From: Chloroflexota bacterium
GTDB lineage: Bacteria > Chloroflexota > Limnocylindria > Limnocylindrales > CSP1-4
Assembly (NCBI GenBank): GCA_003153755.1
Contig: PMBG01000138.1
Location: 18,139-68,234 of the forward strand
Length of the DNA stretch: 50,096 nt
Direction: 5' to 3'
Shown here piece after piece: positions 24,880 through 33,856 of this stretch; position 1 is the first letter of the stretch; each line of letters opens with the position of its first letter. Position numbers and translations under genes: made by a program. The notes under the pieces were generated by a model. The model was not told where the DNA came from, ran no database searches, and worked only from the letters and a program-made list of their open reading frames with translations.

Positions 24880-25338
24880 GTGAACGCGGGGATCGAGCTC
24901 ATCAACAGGGCATCCGCCGCGCACCGTCTGGCCGAGTTTCCGGCGATGCTCGACCTGGCGCTCCGCGCTCAGGCGCACGCTCGAGCCCCGTACTCCGGGT
25001 TCCACGTCGGGGCGGCCGTGCTCACCGGCAGCGGCGCGCTTCATGGGGGCTGCAACGTCGAATCCGCTTCGTACGGGGCCACGATCTGCGCGGAGAGAAG
25101 CGCCGTCGTTGGGGCTGTGAGTGCCGGCGAATCGGTGTTGAGGGCCGTGGTGGTAGTCACTCCAACTCCCGAGCCGTCGAGCCCGTGCGGGATCTGCCGC
25201 CAGTTGCTCGCCGAGTTCGGCGCGGAGGTTCTCGTTTTCGCGGCTTCGAGCGTCTCGGACGCCGTATTTGCGACAACGCTCGGCGATCTCCTGCCGCTCG
25301 GTTTCTACGCCGCGAAGCTTGACGAGGCGGTCCGATGA
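24880..25338 (+). CDS. cdd: Cytidine deaminase
   Basis: This 152-residue zinc enzyme deaminates cytidine and deoxycytidine to uridine and deoxyuridine. The zinc and catalytic motifs are CAERSA (Cys and catalytic Glu) and PCGICRQ (two Cys). The substrate block NVESASYG precedes them. GTG at 24880 follows GGAGG by 7-8 bases; the frame is open much further upstream but that part overlaps the divergent gene's promoter. Its stop overlaps the punA start by ATGA. Its product feeds the uridine phosphorylase-like enzyme encoded next door. Confidence 0.94.
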   Translation: MNAGIELINRASAAHRLAEFPAMLDLALRAQAHARAPYSGFHVGAAVLTGSGALHGGCNVESASYGATICAERSAVVGAVSAGESVLRAVVVVTPTPEPSSPCGICRQLLAEFGAEVLVFAASSVSDAVFATTLGDLLPLGFYAAKLDEAVR

Positions 25339-26210
25339 ATGGGGCAGGGGAGCCGTTCGTCCTGGGCCGGGAGATTCTCCCTGCAGAGCAGCCGGCCAGA
25401 CTGGCGGCCCTGGAAGCGGCGGTGCGCGCCCACACGACCCTTCGACCGAAGATCGGGCTCGTGCTGGGCTCCGGTCTCGGCGGACTCGCGGATGCCGTAA
25501 GTGTCGAGGTCGCGGTTCCGTTCGGCGATCTGCCGGGCTGGCCGGCCGCAACTGCGCCCGGTCACGCGGGGCGGCTCCTCTTCGGCCGGCTTCGTGGAGT
25601 GCCCGTTGTAGTCCAGCAGGGCCGATTTCACCTCTACGAGGGCCACTCCGCCGGGTTCGTCGTGCAGCCGGTGCTTCTCATGCGCCGGCTCGGCGCGGAG
25701 ATCGCGATCATCACGAATGCCGCCGGGGGCCTGAACCGCGACTTCGCCGCCGGCACGCTCATGGCTATCACGGACCACATCAACCTGACGGGCCGTCATC
25801 CACTGATAGGCCCGAACGCGGACGCGATAGGACCCCGTTTCCCGGACATGACCACGGTCTGGGACGAGGCCCTGCGCGAGCGGCTACTTGCCGCGGCTGC
25901 AGCCGAAGGTGTCCCGATGGTTGAGGGCGTCTACGCCTGCCTCACCGGGCCCAGCTACGAAACCCCGGCCGAGGTGCGAATGCTTCGGACACTGGGCGGC
26001 GACGCAGTGGGCATGTCCACCGCGCTCGAGGCTGTGGCCGCGCACTGGGCAGGCCTCCGAGTATGCGGAGTGTCGCTCGTGACCAATCCGGGGGCCGGCC
26101 TGACCGCGGCGCAGCTCAGCCACACCGAGGTTCTTGCCGCCGCGGCAGAGGCCGGTCCGAGACTCGCCCGCGTTGTAGCAAGGTTCGTGGCCGGTTTCGA
26201 GGCTTCGTAG
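25335..26210 (+). CDS. punA: Purine-nucleoside phosphorylase, trimeric class
   Basis: This 291-residue enzyme splits inosine and guanosine (and deoxy forms) with phosphate. Motifs are GLVLGSGLGGLA (phosphate loop), GRFHLYEGHS, NAAGGLN, TGPSYETPAEVRMLR, VGMSTALEA and SLVTNPGAG, whose Asn contacts the 6-oxopurine. It is coupled to cdd by a 4-base overlap. The last 95 bases are overlapped on the opposite strand by the extended reading frame of ssb. Confidence 0.95.
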   Translation: MNGAGEPFVLGREILPAEQPARLAALEAAVRAHTTLRPKIGLVLGSGLGGLADAVSVEVAVPFGDLPGWPAATAPGHAGRLLFGRLRGVPVVVQQGRFHLYEGHSAGFVVQPVLLMRRLGAEIAIITNAAGGLNRDFAAGTLMAITDHINLTGRHPLIGPNADAIGPRFPDMTTVWDEALRERLLAAAAAEGVPMVEGVYACLTGPSYETPAEVRMLRTLGGDAVGMSTALEAVAAHWAGLRVCGVSLVTNPGAGLTAAQLSHTEVLAAAAEAGPRLARVVARFVAGFEAS

Positions 26211-26742
26211 AAGGAGACGGGGCGCCGCCTTTGTGGGGAGGACCGACGACGCCCCGGGAAGGTTTCTGGGCCAGAACGAGGGTCTGCTCGTCCTCGGTGG
26301 TGAGTACGCGCTCGGCGTCGTCGGCGGGTTCCTCGGCGGAGGATCCGTCGCCGGACTTGCCCGCGGCATCGTCCTCTCCGGATGTCGACGCGGCCTGGCT
26401 CGCAAGCGACTCCGCCTCGTAGTCGCGCTTGCGGCGCCCGGAGAGCATCTCGACCGTCGTGGCCACTACCTCCGTCTTCCAGTGGCGCACGCCGCGGTCG
26501 TCTTCCCATTGCCTCGTCTGCAGCCGTCCCTCGACGGCGACCTGCTGGCCCTTGCCGAGGTACTGGCCGCACACGGTGGCGAGACGGTCCCAAACGACGA
26601 CGTTGTGATACTCCGCGTGCTCCTTGCCGTTGCCCCGGAATTCGTTCGTGGCGACGCTGAACGTGGCGACGGACGAGCCGTTTGCCAGAGCCCGAAGCTC
26701 CGGATCTCGGGTCAGACGACCCGTAAGCAGGACCTTGTTCAC
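26116..26742 (-). CDS. ssb: Single-stranded DNA-binding protein with unusual C-terminus
   Basis: The N-terminal 105 residues form a typical SSB OB-fold ([59 protein letters not shown]). GTG at 26742 is preceded by GAGGAGA. An acidic region follows ([23 protein letters not shown]), but the protein does not end in the usual acidic DDDIPF-like peptide. Instead the frame continues through a basic, Pro-rich stretch and overlaps punA by 95 bases, for 208 residues in all. The other two frames give no DIPF-like end either. The gene stands alone rather than between rpsF and rpsR, so it may be a secondary SSB. Confidence 0.85.
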
Positions 26743-26986
26743 GGTCCCAATCTCCTCTACCGGCGCCGCCCTGCGGCAACGCCCTATCTTTGACGGCGGT
26801 GATCAAGACCCTAGCGGGCGCCGCTCACCGCGGACTTATCGGCGGCTTATGCGGCTTGCGGCCGGGGCGCAAATTGGGCCGCACGACATGCGTCACGCGA
26901 CCGGTGGTCGAAGCCGTCCATACTTGGAATGCCGGTGTTGCCCAGCCGCGGAGTTGTCGGGTGCCGGAGAAGTGAGGCGATTGCCG

Positions 26987-28594
26987 ATGTCGCGACATGT
27001 GGATATGCCGGCCGGGCGCCGGGCACCGGGTGCCGGACTTGCCCGGATCGCCACTGTTGCCATGCTCGCCCTCGCGTCTTCGGGGATCGTCGTGGCCTGG
27101 GCGGGGCCGCTTGCCGCACCGGTATCGGCGGCCGCGGTTTCGGGCAAGGTCGTAGGCTGGGGTGCCAACAACGCACATCAGATCGACATTCCGGCGGCCG
27201 CTCAATCAGGCGTGGTCGCGGTCTCAGCCGGCTGCAACCACAGCCTGGCGCTGAAATCGACGGGTGAGGTCGTCGCCTGGGGAGACGACACCTACCATCA
27301 GACTGAAGTCCCGGCGGCAGCCAAGTCCGGCGTCGTGACGATATCGGCGGGCTGCAACTACAACCTGGCTCTGAAATCCACTGGCGCGCTGGTCGCCTGG
27401 GGTGACAACACATACGGGCAGATCAGCCTGCCGACCCTGGCGTCGGGCTTCGCCTGGTATGCGGCCGGAGCCGGGGAGCGTTTCAGTGTGGCGCTCGCCT
27501 ACAACAAGTCCACCAAGCAAACCTCGGTCTACAACTGGGGTGACAGCGCACCCGCCACCACGAACACGTACACATACGGGGTCAAGGACGTCGAGGTCGG
27601 CCAGTACGCCTGGGTCCTCCTTCTCACCGATGGGACTCTGGCACCCGACGGCGGCTCGCCCCCGAGTCTTCTCGTAGCACCGGCAGGCGTGGCCAACGCA
27701 ACCGCAGTGGACGTGGGGCGTGAGCACGCAATTGCCCTGCGGTCGAACGGGACGGTCATAACCTGGGGCCAGAACGAGTACAACCAGAGTGCCGTGCCGG
27801 CCGGCCTCGCCGGTGTCACTGCCGTCGCTGCCGGCGGATTCCACAACCTGGCGCTCAAGTCCGACGGCTCGATCGTGGGCTGGGGTCGCAACGATGAGGG
27901 CCAGGCGGCGGTTCCGGCCGTACCTGCCGGCAGCCACTACATCGCTATCGCCGGCGGAATGCTTCACAGCCTTGCGATCGCCGCCCCCAACCTCCCCGGT
28001 GCGCCCACGGCGGTGACGGCGACGGCCTACGACGGTGCCGCAACGGTCATCTGGACGGCCCCGGCGAGCGACGGCGGCAACGCGATCACGGGATATACGG
28101 TTACCTCCAAGCCCGACGGCAAGACCTGCGACACGACCGGCGTTCGGGCGTGCACCGTCACAGGCCTGACCAACGGGACTGCCTACACGTTCACAGTGGT
28201 CGCGAAGAATGGCGGTGGCGCGAGCACGCCGTCGGCGGCTTCGACCGCGGTCACGCCGGTGGGCCCTACGCCGTCGCCTGCGCCGCCCACTCCAACTCCG
28301 GCACCGAGCACCGGTAAGCCCTCGGCGACGCCGGTCCTCTCTCCTTCTGCGATGGCGAGCGCGACCGCGAGCCTTCTCTCGTCGCCAGCCCGGCCTTCCG
28401 CCGGGGCCACCGGCGGCAACTCCGACGGCCCGCTGCTCGCATTCCTCGTGCTCCTCCTTGTCCTGTGCATATCCCTGGGGCTCTTCGCTTCGTACCAGGC
28501 GTTCGTGAAGCCGAACAACCGCCGAACGCATCGATCCGCGCGCCCGCGAGTCGATCCGGATCGCTACGACGACCCGGACTACCCGTCCTTCTGA
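26987..28594 (+). CDS. Exported RCC1-type seven-repeat propeller protein with FN3 domain and C-terminal membrane anchor
   Basis: This protein has 535 residues. ATG at 26987 follows GAGG by 9 bases and starts an export signal (hydrophobic about residues 20-43, ending PVSAAA). Seven RCC1-like repeats of about 38-46 residues follow, of the form VVAWGxNxxxQ...VPAxxxxVxxxxAGxxHxLALKSxG; repeats 3-5 are degenerate. Then come one fibronectin type III domain (about residues 342-425), a Pro/Ser/Thr linker, a transmembrane helix ([19 protein letters not shown]) and a basic tail with many Arg. The propeller should therefore face outward, anchored by the C-terminus. The function is unknown; secreted RCC1 proteins are generally uncharacterised. 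Confidence 0.85.
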
Positions 28595-28713
28595 GGTCCG
28601 CCCCGCACACAGCGTGCCCCTGCCGATGGCAGAACCGGCAGATGGGACTAAGCTGCTGGTGTCGCGCGACCCGCCCAGCGGAGCGGTGGGCTAGAACGGG
28701 GAGGATGCACGGA

Positions 28714-29826
28714 ATGATCGCGAGAAGCACCGTTCGCTCTCGGAACACCCTGGTGGCGCTTCTGAGCCTGACGATGTTGGCCGCCGCTGCGTGCGGGTCC
28801 GGGAATTCGACGCCGTCCCCCGCTGGTTCCCCGGGAAGCCAGGCGGCTTCGATCGTTCCGCCGGCGACGGGCACGCCCGTGTCTTCTTCGCCCCTGTCCT
28901 CCTCGCCCTTGTCATCGGTACTGCCGACTGCCGGCCCCACTGTCACGCCCGCTCCGGTATCGGCGACGCCCGTTGCGTCCACCTCCGGCATCGTGGTCGC
29001 GTGGGGTCGTGACGATGAGGGCCAGACCAACGTTCCTGCCGGTCTAGCAGGAGTCGTGGCCGTCGCCGCGGGCGACACCTTCAGTGTGGCGCTCAAGTCG
29101 GACGGTACCGTGGTCGCCTGGGGCGCCTCCGACTCCGGTCAGACCAAGGTCCCGGCGAGCGCCACCGGAATCACGGCCATTGCCGCGGGCAGCTCGCATG
29201 CGATCGCGCTCAAGGCCAACGGTACCGTGATCGGCTGGGGCGCCAACACGTACGGGCAGGCGCAATCGGCCGCCGGGCTGTCCGGCGTTGTTCAGATCTC
29301 CGCCGGCGGTGACCACGACCTTGCGCTGAAATCGGACGGCACGGTGGTTGCGTGGGGCAGCGATGCCAACGGCGAGACCGAGGTGCCTGCCGGCTTGAAG
29401 AATGTCGTCCAGGTTTCCGCAGGCTACGACTACAGCCTGGCGCTGCTGAAGGACGGCACCGTCGTTGGCTGGGGCGACAAATACCCAACGGACACCTCGA
29501 TCCATGTGGCCAAGGTGCCCGCGGGACTGTCGGGTGTGTCGGCTGTGGACGCCGGCTACTTCCACAATCTGGTCCTCAAGAGCGACGGCACCGTCCTCGC
29601 CTGGGGCCAGAACGCGGATGGTCAGACCACGGTCCCGGCAGGGCTGGCGAATGTCCGGTCTGTCGCGGCCGGCGGCAGCTTCAGCCTCGTGCTCAAGACC
29701 GATGGGACGGTGGCTGCGTGGGGTCGCCTTGGCGACGGCACGACGGCCATTCCATCGGGCGTGATGAACGTGATAGGTATCGCTGTTGGCGGCGACCATG
29801 CACTGGCTATCGTGGGCCAGCCCTAG
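28714..29826 (+). CDS. RCC1-type seven-repeat propeller lipoprotein
   Basis: This protein has 370 residues. ATG at 28714 is chosen over ATG 28705 because GGGGAGG (28698-28704) abuts 28705 but lies 9 bases before 28714. The signal peptide has lipobox AAAC (Cys27), then a Ser/Thr/Pro linker of about 60 residues, then seven repeats of about 38-44 residues with the consensus VVAWGxxxxGQTxVPAGLxxVxxVAAGxxHxLALKSDGT. Seven repeats match a complete propeller. The repeats resemble those of the preceding gene product, suggesting duplication with a change of anchor. The last repeat ends four residues before the stop, so nothing follows the propeller. Confidence 0.87.
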   Translation: MIARSTVRSRNTLVALLSLTMLAAAACGSGNSTPSPAGSPGSQAASIVPPATGTPVSSSPLSSSPLSSVLPTAGPTVTPAPVSATPVASTSGIVVAWGRDDEGQTNVPAGLAGVVAVAAGDTFSVALKSDGTVVAWGASDSGQTKVPASATGITAIAAGSSHAIALKANGTVIGWGANTYGQAQSAAGLSGVVQISAGGDHDLALKSDGTVVAWGSDANGETEVPAGLKNVVQVSAGYDYSLALLKDGTVVGWGDKYPTDTSIHVAKVPAGLSGVSAVDAGYFHNLVLKSDGTVLAWGQNADGQTTVPAGLANVRSVAAGGSFSLVLKTDGTVAAWGRLGDGTTAIPSGVMNVIGIAVGGDHALAIVGQP

Positions 29827-29853: not shown

Positions 29854-30648
29854 ATGACCATGAAGGATCGACTCGCCAATAGGGCGCCGCTGGACCTGGC
29901 CGGGCTGGACGAGGCCGCCCTGATGGGCGTCATAGACCACTCGATCTTGCGGCCCGAAGTCACCAGAGCGGAAGTCGAGGCGGCCATCGACGTGGCCATC
30001 GAATGGAATACGGCCACGATCTGCTGCCGCCCGGCGGACCTGGAGCTCGTAGTCAAGCGGCTCCGCGGCACCGAAGTGGGGCCCACCACGGTGATCGGGT
30101 TCCCGCACGGGGCGCATACGACGCAGATCAAGGAGCGCGAGGCCGTTCTCGCGGTGGACCAGGGCGCCGTTGAGATTGACGTGGTGGTGAACATCGGCGC
30201 GCTGCGCGGTGGTGACCTCGGTTACGCACGAGACGAGCTTGCGAGCATCTGCTACGCCGTGGCTCCCACACCGGTGAAGGTGATCCTCGAGACCGCGTAC
30301 CTGACCCCGGAGCAGGTCGAGGCCGGCTGTCGGATCGTTGTCGAGGCTCGCGCCGCGTTCGTCAAGAACGGTACCGGATACTCGCCGCGTGGCGCGGAGC
30401 CCGGTGAGATCGCGCTGATGCGCCGGGTCGTCGGCAATTCCTTTGGCGTCAAGGCGGCCGGCGGAGTTCGGACGCTCGATGCGCTGCTCGCGGTCCTGGC
30501 AGCGGGCGCATGCCGTTGCGGCGCCACGGCCACGGCAGCGATCGCGGCCGAGTGGCGGACACGAGGCCCGGAAGCGGTTGCGGCGGCCATCGCGGCACGT
30601 CCCGCAGCGAAGACCGCGACGGGCCCCGCGGCCAGCGAGGAAGAGTAG
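29854..30648 (+). CDS. deoC: Deoxyribose-phosphate aldolase
   Basis: This 264-residue cytoplasmic enzyme splits 2-deoxyribose 5-phosphate into glyceraldehyde 3-phosphate and acetaldehyde. Family blocks are IDHSILRPE, VIGFPHGAHTTQIKE, EIDVVVNIGAL, FVKNGTGYSPRGA (with the Schiff-base lysine) and VKAAGGVRT (with the second lysine). ATG at 29854 follows AAGGAG by 7 bases. The C-terminal 20 residues are Ala-rich and acidic. It completes the deoxynucleoside salvage route with the two phosphorylases; a phosphopentomutase is not in the window. Confidence 0.95.
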   Translation: MTMKDRLANRAPLDLAGLDEAALMGVIDHSILRPEVTRAEVEAAIDVAIEWNTATICCRPADLELVVKRLRGTEVGPTTVIGFPHGAHTTQIKEREAVLAVDQGAVEIDVVVNIGALRGGDLGYARDELASICYAVAPTPVKVILETAYLTPEQVEAGCRIVVEARAAFVKNGTGYSPRGAEPGEIALMRRVVGNSFGVKAAGGVRTLDALLAVLAAGACRCGATATAAIAAEWRTRGPEAVAAAIAARPAAKTATGPAASEEE

Positions 30649-30765: not shown

Positions 30766-30774
30766 TGCTATACT
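30766..30774 (+). promoter_or_regulatory. Extended -10 promoter upstream of the purine operon leader
   Basis: TGC-TATACT at 30766-30774 is an extended -10 element; TATACT itself is 30769-30774. No good -35 box lies 17 bases upstream, as is usual for extended -10 promoters. The predicted start is about base 30781, giving a leader of about 230 bases before purA. Confidence 0.55.
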
Positions 30775-30780
30775 CCGCGT

Positions 30781-31010
30781 GCCTGCTGCCGGGCGGCCGC
30801 GGGTCCACCAGACCATTTCGAGGAGTCTATGTTGCCTGTTGAAGGCGCTTGGTACGCCCCGTGAGACGGACCACCACCTTCGCTCCTGGAGGAGCCGCAG
30901 CTCCAATGGAGGGGCAGTCTACCCAGGTCCCCGGCCCGAAGGCCGAGGGCTTTTTCATTTCCCGCGCAACGTCCGGGGCGTGCCGGGTTCAGCTGCGAGG
31001 GGAGAAGTAG
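30781..31010 (+). promoter_or_regulatory. Structured purA leader with competing helix and terminator (candidate riboswitch or attenuator)
   Basis: A long-range helix can join 30795-30813 to 30917-30936: GGCCG, GGG, CC and AGAC pair with GUCU, GG, CCC and CGGCC, 14 pairs with small interruptions. Its 3' strand includes the 5' arm of the terminator at 30929-30955, so the two folds exclude each other. The 5' strand GGCCGCGGG and the terminator 3' arm GGCCGAGGG are near copies. The enclosed 103 bases hold further hairpins (for example GCCT/AGGC at 30834-30846 and CUCC/GGAG near 30874). No promoter is visible between the terminator and purA, so the operon would be read through it. I recognise no known riboswitch class. 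Confidence 0.55.
30929..30955 (+). terminator. Intrinsic terminator inside the purA leader
   Basis: CCC-CGGCC (30929-30936) pairs with GGCCG-GGG (30941-30949, A30946 bulged) around loop CGAA, followed by C and TTTTT (30951-30955). This is the clearest intrinsic terminator in the window, yet it lies 55 bases before purA rather than after a gene. Confidence 0.7.
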
Positions 31011-32366
31011 ATGCCTGCCACCGTGATCGTCGGCCTCCAGTGGGGCGATGAAGGCAAGGGCAAGACCACGGACTTCCTCGCCGAGGACGTCACGGCGGTC
31101 GTGCGATATCAGGGCGGAGACAACGCCGGACATACGATCATGCTCGGCGAGGAGGTCTTCAAGCTCCACCTCGTTCCGTCCGGCGTTCTCTACCCGCACA
31201 TCACTCCGATCATCGGCAACGGCGTTGTGGTCAACCCGGCCACTCTGATATCCGAGATCGAGATGCTTTCCGCGCGTGGCATCGCGACCGACAGGATCCG
31301 CGTAAGCAAGCACGCCCACGTGATCATGCCGTACCACATTGCGCTGGACGGGGCGATGGAGGCGCGGCTGGCCAGCGCGGCCGTGGGGACCACTCGGCGC
31401 GGCATCGGCCCCGCCTACGCGGACAGGGCCTGGCGCATCGGCATCCGGATGGAGGATCTGCTGGACGGCGCCGCGCTTCGTGGAAAGCTCGCCCGGATCC
31501 TGCCGGAGAAGAATGCGACTCTCCAGCGCCAGCACAGGGTGGACGGCTTCGATCTCGACGAGCTGGTTGCTCTCGCGGTCGGGTGGGGCCGCCGCCTGGA
31601 GAATCACCTGGCCGACACGACTCAGCTGGTCCAGGAGCGGATGGCCCGCGGCGAGCACCTGCTCTTCGAAGGCGCGCAGGGGACCCTGCTCGATCTGGAT
31701 CACGGCAGCTATCCGTTCGTTACCTCCTCCAATCCAATCGCCGGCGGCGCGTGCACGGGCGGCGGCATCGGCCCGCTGCAGGTCACCGAGGTCCTGGGCG
31801 TCATGAAGGCCTACGCCACGCGCGTAGGGGCGGGTCCGTTCCCCACGGAACTCACAGACGAGATCGGCGAGGGCATCATCGACCGGGGACGCGAGTTCGG
31901 TACCACCACCGGGCGCCGCCGCCGCGTGGGCTGGTTCGATGCCGTGCCGCTTCGCTATGCCGTGGCCGTCAATAGTGTCAGCTCGATAATGCTCAACAAG
32001 ATCGACATCCTCTCGGGCCTCGACGAGGTGTTGATCTGCATGGCATACGAAGTCGACGGCAAGCGCATCGACTGGTGGCCGTCGGACGCCGACGTGCTGG
32101 CCCGGGCGAAGCCGATCTACGAGCGATTCCCGGGCTGGAAGGAGCCGATCCACGGCTGCCGCTCCATGAGCGACCTGCCCGAGAACGCCCGGCGTTACGT
32201 GGATGCGGTGGAACGCCTCTCCGGCGCCCAGATCTGCCTCGTTTCGGTGGGCCCGGAGCGGAATCAGACGATCGAACGTCTCCCGCGGCTGCAGCGGCCC
32301 ACGACTGCCTCGGCCCTGGGCTCGGCCGCGACGCGGGCCGGATCTGAGGCTACGGCCGAGCGATGA
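31011..32366 (+). CDS. purA: Adenylosuccinate synthetase
   Basis: This 451-residue GTP-dependent enzyme condenses IMP with aspartate on the way to AMP. It starts MPATVIVGLQWGDEGKGKTTDF, with the catalytic Asp in the GDEGKGK loop and catalytic His in GGDNAGHT. TTRRGIGPAYADR, FEGAQGTLLDLDHG and TTTGRRRRVGW are the usual blocks. ATG follows GGGGAG. About 25 residues after the conserved end (QTIERLPRL) are low-complexity Ala/Thr/Ser. It is the first gene of the purine operon, behind the structured leader, and overlaps purD by ATGA. Confidence 0.96.
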   Translation: MPATVIVGLQWGDEGKGKTTDFLAEDVTAVVRYQGGDNAGHTIMLGEEVFKLHLVPSGVLYPHITPIIGNGVVVNPATLISEIEMLSARGIATDRIRVSKHAHVIMPYHIALDGAMEARLASAAVGTTRRGIGPAYADRAWRIGIRMEDLLDGAALRGKLARILPEKNATLQRQHRVDGFDLDELVALAVGWGRRLENHLADTTQLVQERMARGEHLLFEGAQGTLLDLDHGSYPFVTSSNPIAGGACTGGGIGPLQVTEVLGVMKAYATRVGAGPFPTELTDEIGEGIIDRGREFGTTTGRRRRVGWFDAVPLRYAVAVNSVSSIMLNKIDILSGLDEVLICMAYEVDGKRIDWWPSDADVLARAKPIYERFPGWKEPIHGCRSMSDLPENARRYVDAVERLSGAQICLVSVGPERNQTIERLPRLQRPTTASALGSAATRAGSEATAER

Positions 32367-33856
32367 TCCATCAGGCGCCGTCCAGCGAGGCTCAAGGCTC
32401 CGGTCCTGCCCGCCTGCTCGTGGTCGGCAGCGGTGGGCGCGAGCATGCTCTCGTCTGGAGCCTGGCACGCGAGGCCGCCGTCGAGGCGGTTCTCGTGGCG
32501 CCCGGGAGCGACGCCATCGGTGCGGAGCCCAAGGTGCACTGTTTCCCGGATGTGTCCGCAATGGATCCGGCCGCGATCACCGAGCTGGCCGTGGCCGAGA
32601 GAGTGGACCTCGTGATCGTTGGTCCGGAGGCGCCGCTCTCGGTTGGTGTCGCCGATGCGCTGTTCGCCGCCGGAGTGCCGGTCTTCGGTCCCACCCGCGC
32701 CGCGGCTCGCATCGAATGGAGCAAGTCATTCTGCCGCGAGGTGGCTGCCGCCGCCGGCGTCCGCATGGCGCTCGGCGCCCAGTTCGCCGAACTCGAGCCG
32801 GCACTCGAGTTTGCCCGCGAGCTCGCCGGTGCGCCGCGATCAAACGGGCTGGTGGTAAAGGCCGACGGCCTCGCAGCCGGCAAGGGCGTGACGGTCTGCG
32901 ACGACTTCGCCTCGGCCGAGGCCGCGCTTCGAGCGCTGTTCGCCGGCGTCACGGACGGTGCCGCGCCGACGGCCCCGGAACCTTCTCAGCCGGTTGTTGT
33001 TCTGGAGGAGCGTCTTTCGGGCGAGGAAGCCAGTCTCATCGCCATCTGCGACGGCCGCGCCGCGCTGGCGCTTCCGCCGGCACGTGACCACAAGCGACTG
33101 CGGGACGGCGACGCAGGGCCGAACACCGGCGGCATGGGTGCGTACAGCCCCGTACCGGATCTGCCTGAGAGCCTCTGTGCGACTCTCATCGACGTGGTCC
33201 ATCTCCCCGTCCTGGCCGAACTGGCGCGACGCGGAACGCCTTTCCGGGGTGCGCTGTATGCGGGCTTGATGCTGACGCCCGAAGGCCCGGTTCTAATCGA
33301 ATTCAATGCCCGCTTCGGCGATCCCGAAGTACAGGCGCTCCTTCCTCGCCTCGCCGTTCCGCTGGGGCCACTTCTCCTGGGCGCCGCACAGGGCAACCTG
33401 GCTGCCGCCGTCGCCGAACTCGGTCTCCCCGGCCGGGTCCTGCCTACTACCGGCGACGCGGCCGTTGCCGTGGTCCTGGCCGCCGGCAACTACCCCGAAA
33501 CTCCGCGCAAGGGCGATGCGATCACGGGCCTCGACGAGGCGGCCGCTACCGGCGCCCGCGTCTTCCATGCGGGAACGATCCGCGGTGCCGACGGTCAGTT
33601 CCGCACCAACGGCGGCCGCGTGCTTGCGGTCGTGGGCCTCGGCTCGTCGATCGCTTCGGCTCGCGCTACGGCCGAACGCGCCGCGGATTGCCTCCGCTGG
33701 GACGGGATGCAGCGCCGCCACGACATCGCCCAGCGGCTGCCCGGAGTAGCAGGGCGCGGTTCCGCGGGGGCGTCCCGAGCGCCCGTGTCGGCCGCGGACT
33801 GGGAGGATCCGGCCGGCAGGACTCCGAGCGGACCGAGCGAGGTGGCCGGATCATGA
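32363..33856 (+). CDS. purD: Phosphoribosylamine-glycine ligase
   Basis: This 497-residue ATP-grasp enzyme makes glycinamide ribonucleotide (step 2). It shows LLVVGSGGREHALVW, GPEAPLSVGVADAL, LVVKADGLAAGKGVTV, NTGGMGAYSP and EFNARFGDPEVQ. The family is usually about 420-430 residues. About 15 residues at the start (MIHQAPSSEAQGSGP) and some 45 at the end, rich in Ala, Gly, Pro and Ser, are extra. Its start overlaps purA and its end overlaps purB, each by 4 bases. Confidence 0.95.
   Translation: MIHQAPSSEAQGSGPARLLVVGSGGREHALVWSLAREAAVEAVLVAPGSDAIGAEPKVHCFPDVSAMDPAAITELAVAERVDLVIVGPEAPLSVGVADALFAAGVPVFGPTRAAARIEWSKSFCREVAAAAGVRMALGAQFAELEPALEFARELAGAPRSNGLVVKADGLAAGKGVTVCDDFASAEAALRALFAGVTDGAAPTAPEPSQPVVVLEERLSGEEASLIAICDGRAALALPPARDHKRLRDGDAGPNTGGMGAYSPVPDLPESLCATLIDVVHLPVLAELARRGTPFRGALYAGLMLTPEGPVLIEFNARFGDPEVQALLPRLAVPLGPLLLGAAQGNLAAAVAELGLPGRVLPTTGDAAVAVVLAAGNYPETPRKGDAITGLDEAAATGARVFHAGTIRGADGQFRTNGGRVLAVVGLGSSIASARATAERAADCLRWDGMQRRHDIAQRLPGVAGRGSAGASRAPVSAADWEDPAGRTPSGPSEVAGS

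Follow-up and report, generated by a model that had tools for sequence, protein, structure and literature searches.

The de novo purine operon in the stretch of DNA analyzed here (the window, 50,096 nucleotides from a Limnocylindria-type MAG of the Chloroflexota) is preceded by a leader RNA that, in our best reading, represents a new orphan family of attenuator RNAs, riboswitch-like, lineage-specific, and so far undescribed. A folded RNA of ~150 bases ending in a terminator probably decides whether the purine genes are transcribed. We assign a probability of roughly 0.5 to the full proposal, namely, that this cis-regulatory leader controls the operon by transcription attenuation, likely as a metabolite-sensing OFF switch. 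The structured RNA family spans ~90 genomes, has a working covariance model, and sits on the entire purine operon in an uncultivated family of bacteria, in which no ZTP or purine riboswitch was detected (41 genomes). Because the gene context narrows the ligand to a short list, the question of sensing is directly testable in vitro. Direct sensing, if confirmed, would place the leader in a new riboswitch class related to purines. With an upstream open reading frame (uORF) as the sensor, the leader would instead exemplify control of a nucleotide pathway through a ribosome that halts within an RNA loop.

Gene context and distribution of the purA leader

The leader occupies ~230 nt between promoter and gene, and its elements, like the operon, lie on the plus strand. 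Both of the flanking signals named in the preliminary description are present. The extended -10 promoter TGCTATACT was found at 30766 to 30774, and TGNTATACT or a close variant precedes the element across the family, in ~50 of 81 relatives, with the remainder including loci with a short contig or upstream stretch. We infer a transcription start at about 30780 to 30782. In several genera (L126, L133, L176, L177, L178, and L148), a GTCCTCGA box lies just 3' of the -10 element, at the likely transcription start, and in many of those relatives it is complementary to CTCGAGGA before the first helix, P1. At the other end of the leader, the intrinsic terminator (30926 to 30955) consists of a hairpin (30926 to 30936 with 30941 to 30951; −17.1 kcal/mol) and a T-run, ending ~55 nt upstream of purA. 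This terminator is kept before the first operon gene and covaries across the family.

The first gene of the operon is purA (adenylosuccinate synthetase, 31011 to 32366; Pfam PF00709, E value of 9.7e-172), and the second is purD (32363 to 33856; Pfam GARS domains). The operon of a genome from a different genus (G024) has the same order, purA, purD, purB onward, as judged from ORF starts. In two members of the genus, L006 and L012 (G015 and G012), the purA start is apparently TTG. Upstream of the leader, a DeoC-family aldolase gene (29854 to 30648) and a purine nucleoside phosphorylase gene (25335 to 26210) flank two adjacent RCC1-repeat proteins (26624 to 29826), one of which has a fibronectin III domain. 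On the minus strand, an SSB-family frame (26116 to 26742) overlaps with the purine nucleoside phosphorylase frame at the end of the latter. Cotranscription from the upstream deoC could bypass the leader promoter, and this counts against our proposal.

A promoter, a structured RNA, and a terminator are also the layout of a small RNA, which would end at its own terminator and not regulate purA, with purA being transcribed mainly from elsewhere. We consider this extremely unlikely. The synteny with purA is strict across the family wherever checked, and in some genera the purA start codon lies ~25 nt past the T-run, which leaves little room for another promoter. In addition, purA of the sister family (small genomes, ~1.1 Mb; L110 to L115 and L119), in which the element is absent, follows a short leader that carries a conserved TACGAT-type promoter-like box of its own, GGGTACGAT.

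Searching with the leader DNA, we found matches in each of the other 20 members of the genus (21 of 21 in total), always with purA downstream. The genus alignment showed a variable 5' stretch followed by a highly conserved block running from AAGGAG to the T-run, and covariance model R1 was built from this block. With R1, the element was recovered from most of the family's genera, and the fetched loci had purA downstream wherever the contig was long enough; weak matches without an adjacent purA (L153, L154, and L169) were regarded as chance hairpin matches. Model R2, built from the 42-sequence family alignment A4, matched 91 of 107 family genomes. The element is essentially single copy in each genome and immediately precedes an operon of functionally related genes. 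There were zero R2 matches in the sister family, and the three weak matches found elsewhere in the class, outside the family, had no purA nearby. From a phylum sample of 400 genomes, R2 returned 29 matches, all in the family (33 members sampled) and none in the 367 others. Pattern scanning of the GTDB species genomes yielded 28 records, each a MAG of the Chloroflexi/Chloroflexota or “Candidatus Limnocylindrales”; fens were the source of many of them.

Searching the window against Rfam 15 gave no match, with nothing credible for the leader region even at permissive E values. No ZTP, purine, or other Rfam core is present, in agreement with the preliminary description, which saw no core of the ZTP, PRPP/ykkC-type, or purine riboswitches. 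For 14 relatives, no class rose above the gathering threshold for the leader. In three of these relatives, the search did find SAM riboswitches (RF00162; L177:742-854, L105:375-490, and L139:1-94), close upstream of the leader and on the strand opposite to purA. Neither ZTP (RF01750) nor purine (RF00167) riboswitches were found in 41 family genomes; control genomes gave matches. Among open-licence papers, we found no description of a purA leader in this lineage.

Covarying helices and an unpaired linker

Folded alone, the leader sequence of the window was no more stable than its shuffles (z score of 0.13), so comparison of relatives was needed. The conserved structure starts with P1, formed by GAAGG (30841 to 30845) and CCUUC (30877 to 30881). 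Within it lies P2, formed by UGGUACG (30850 to 30856) and CGGACCA (30867 to 30873), with the loop CCCCGUGAGA at 30857 to 30866. P3, a GGAGC-CGCA-GCUCC hairpin at 30891 to 30904, differs in length and sequence in other genera. It is followed by segment B (GGGGC, 30911 to 30915), which is complementary to both the P2 loop and the terminator 5' arm, and by an unpaired conserved linker, CAGUCUACCC (30915 to 30924), the family form of which is GUNUAYCC.

P1, P2, P3, and the terminator covary across the family. The P2 pairs, anchored on the loop, showed C-G/G-C, U-A/C-G, and G-C/A-U exchanges with pairing retained, and RNAalifold on A4 recovered P2 and the terminator unaided. When P1, P2, P3, the terminator, and the pairing of the P2 loop with B were taken together, 78.9% of cells in A4 were paired, compared to 72.7% when shuffled and 36 to 51% when slid, and double changes occurred in 22 of the 34 pairs. 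Permuting strand partners between species gave 0 of 2,000 permutations as good for each of P1, P2, P3, and the terminator. These helices also came out as the coherent ones when every column pair was scanned, and the other high entries were mostly G:U with the T-run. A GCCCC:GGGGC closing stem proposed by RNAalifold on a genus-only alignment was dropped after the family sequences revealed the P2 covariation. Partner permutation of other leader segments gave nothing convincing.

The duplex between the P2 loop and B reaches −12.1 kcal/mol in the window, with 73 of 2,000 partner permutations as good. As these covariation controls ignore phylogenetic relatedness, we regard the comparison as suggestive of a possible pseudoknot. 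Pairing of B with the terminator 5' arm as an antiterminator had no comparative support (1,601 of 2,000 permutations were as good).

P1/P2 is capped by a near-invariant YCCC-GUGA-GR loop; of 81 genomes, 73 have GUGA here and 8 have AUGA. A GUGA with a closing C-G pair is a GNRA tetraloop sequence. The UGA of the loop is present in 42 of 42 sequences and stays constant even where the remaining loop became AUGA types. Between P3 and the terminator, A129 and C131 of the linker are each found in 42 of 42 sequences and the U columns are near-invariant, all of them unpaired. When the linker is read in the overlapping frame, conservation is highest at third codon positions; thus, the constraint on the linker acts on the RNA. 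The invariant unpaired positions (the loop UGA and the linker A and C) would suit a candidate binding site at the RNA level. One genus swaps GUCUAUCC in the linker for UUUGCAACC or similar in several species (L140, L158, L103, and L229 to L231), and this replacement is possibly a specificity variant.

A conserved hairpin loop next to a conserved single-stranded linker is also typical of a protein site. PurA itself, or another regulator, could bind the GUGA hairpin and the linker and in this way control the terminator. However, no candidate protein emerged, and essentially one site per genome, on one operon only, makes a protein-binding leader unlikely in our view.

The preliminary description had proposed a different switch, in which a 5' strand at 30795 to 30803 pairs with the terminator 5' arm as an antiterminator, making an ON switch. 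This complementarity is present in the window (30788 to 30806, 14 bp with interruptions, −26.9 kcal/mol), and in folds of the RNA cut off at the terminator loop, the closing helix accounts for ~48% of the ensemble. Even there it is not clearly above chance, with 13 of 200 composition shuffles pairing as well. The 5' strand belongs to a variable stretch (30782 to 30818) that is poorly conserved in the genus alignment, and no part of the leader is less conserved than the one where this strand lies. When 5' regions were shuffled before folding, the genus showed a mild excess of pairing between the 5' stretch and the terminator arm (0.59 versus 0.42), but the other genera showed none (0.29 versus 0.25), and in most relatives the helix was no better than shuffles. 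Its partners are neither conserved nor covarying, and the structure that is conserved lies outside it, in P1/P2, P3, and the linker. Since the closing helix was the only support for an ON switch, we now consider that mechanism very unlikely. As for the conserved alternative helices that had been sought, the closing helix is unconserved, while the terminator and the leader as a whole are conserved. What stands of the new regulator claimed for the purA leader is therefore a conserved leader with a conserved terminator and no Rfam match; what falls is its mechanism.

A uORF ending in the P2 loop

Upstream of P1 is a Shine-Dalgarno-like GAGGAG (30820 to 30825), which is AAGGAG in nearly all of the genus and AGGAG-type in the family. 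With a spacing of six nt, it is followed by a TTG that opens a uORF of 10 codons, (M)PVEGAWYAP* (30832 to 30864), ending at the UGA of the P2 loop. In the window, an in-frame ATG at 30829 also precedes this TTG. The TTG is retained in about three quarters of 81 genomes, and its distance to the TGA is 30 nt, or 24 nt in three genomes with an in-frame 6-nt deletion. About a quarter of the genomes lack the TTG (mostly having TCG) and retain the RNA structure; on inspection, most of these were without any other usual in-frame start. Codon-level selection on the peptide was not detected (z score of 0.22 in frame), although a peptide this short limits power. The uORF is plausibly an added input rather than the element's core.

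A GTG or ATG overlaps the stop codon of the uORF (GTGA/ATGA; 30861 to 31010, and in relatives). In 25 of 28 representatives, the frame that this GTG or ATG opens is in register with the linker. The resulting ORF runs through the terminator and was not accepted as coding because third positions were the most conserved. A third frame gave a z score of 2.95 in the linker; it has stops in one genus and was taken as chance among nine tests.

The uORF could nonetheless control the attenuator. A ribosome starting from AAGGAG-N6-UUG would translate 10 codons, reach the UGA in the P2 loop, and terminate there, opening P1 and P2, masking the loop, and altering the terminator. The signal would then be the speed of translation or termination (e.g., GTP supply) and not a ligand. 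The strong, well-spaced Shine-Dalgarno sequence, the retained TTG with its nearly fixed distance to the stop, the UGA that persists through loop changes, and an architecture like that of the fthC uORF motif (PMC11109978) all speak for such a design. However, the genomes without a TTG keep the RNA structure and mostly have no substitute start, the peptide shows no codon-level selection, its composition is unrelated to purines, and the invariant linker is left unexplained. We hold a uORF-controlled attenuator to be possible, if somewhat improbable.

Proposed mechanism and related systems

From the positions of the promoter, leader, and terminator, RNA polymerase would have to pass the terminator in order to transcribe purA and the rest of the operon. 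In our proposed attenuation mechanism, P1/P2, P3, and the linker would act as the sensor and the terminator as its output. With the sensor folded, the P2 loop (CCC) might hold segment B (GGG) in a pseudoknot, and the terminator would form (OFF). With the sensor unfolded, B or another partner might interfere with the terminator 5' arm.

In our view, the most likely trigger is direct sensing by the RNA of a purine or pathway metabolite, giving an end-product OFF switch; its ligand and direction, like its antiterminator, are presumed. We favor direct sensing on two grounds: in about a quarter of the genomes, the RNA persists although no usable uORF accompanies it, and the linker contains unpaired bases that are near-invariant. 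Since 41 family genomes contained no ZTP or purine riboswitch, the purA leader could fill that role. Two observations count against direct sensing: the in-frame uORF that ends in the P2 loop in three quarters of the genomes would be superfluous for a pure riboswitch, and a riboswitch class confined to a single family would have a narrow distribution. A bolder version, which we offer as doubtful, would be a riboswitch of a new class whose ligand is a purine nucleotide or an intermediate of the purine pathway and in which the loop of a GUGA-capped hairpin pairs with a downstream G-run and is overlaid by a uORF stop in most species. Ligand and ribosome would then compete for one loop.

Riboswitches for PRPP, ZTP, and purines (guanine/adenine) lie in 5' leaders of purine biosynthesis genes, where the output is often an intrinsic terminator. 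The purA leader shares this gene context and the terminator, but its structure differs, and the Rfam models for these classes do not match it. With classical leader-peptide attenuators (trp and ilvB type), it has in common a short ORF, candidate alternative pairings, and an intrinsic terminator. Unlike in those systems, the peptide of the purA uORF has no excess of a relevant amino acid and shows no codon-level selection, and the uORF is not universal.

The closest analogues are two published motifs. One is the fthC uORF motif of Streptococcus (uORFC-39-1), in which a hairpin, a Shine-Dalgarno-like stretch with a uORF start, a hairpin carrying the stop codon, and a terminator follow one another (PMC11109978). 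Judged by description, the purA leader shares this arrangement and is set apart by its gene and lineage, by an additional hairpin and near-invariant linker, and by the lack of a uORF start in about a quarter of cases. The other, the purS motif of Corynebacterium (WRC-75-1), with six representatives and proposed masking of the ribosome binding site, is likewise an orphan structured RNA before a de novo purine operon with a narrow host range (PMC11109978). By its description, it differs from the purA leader, which precedes purA, ends in a terminator, and is found in ~90 genomes.
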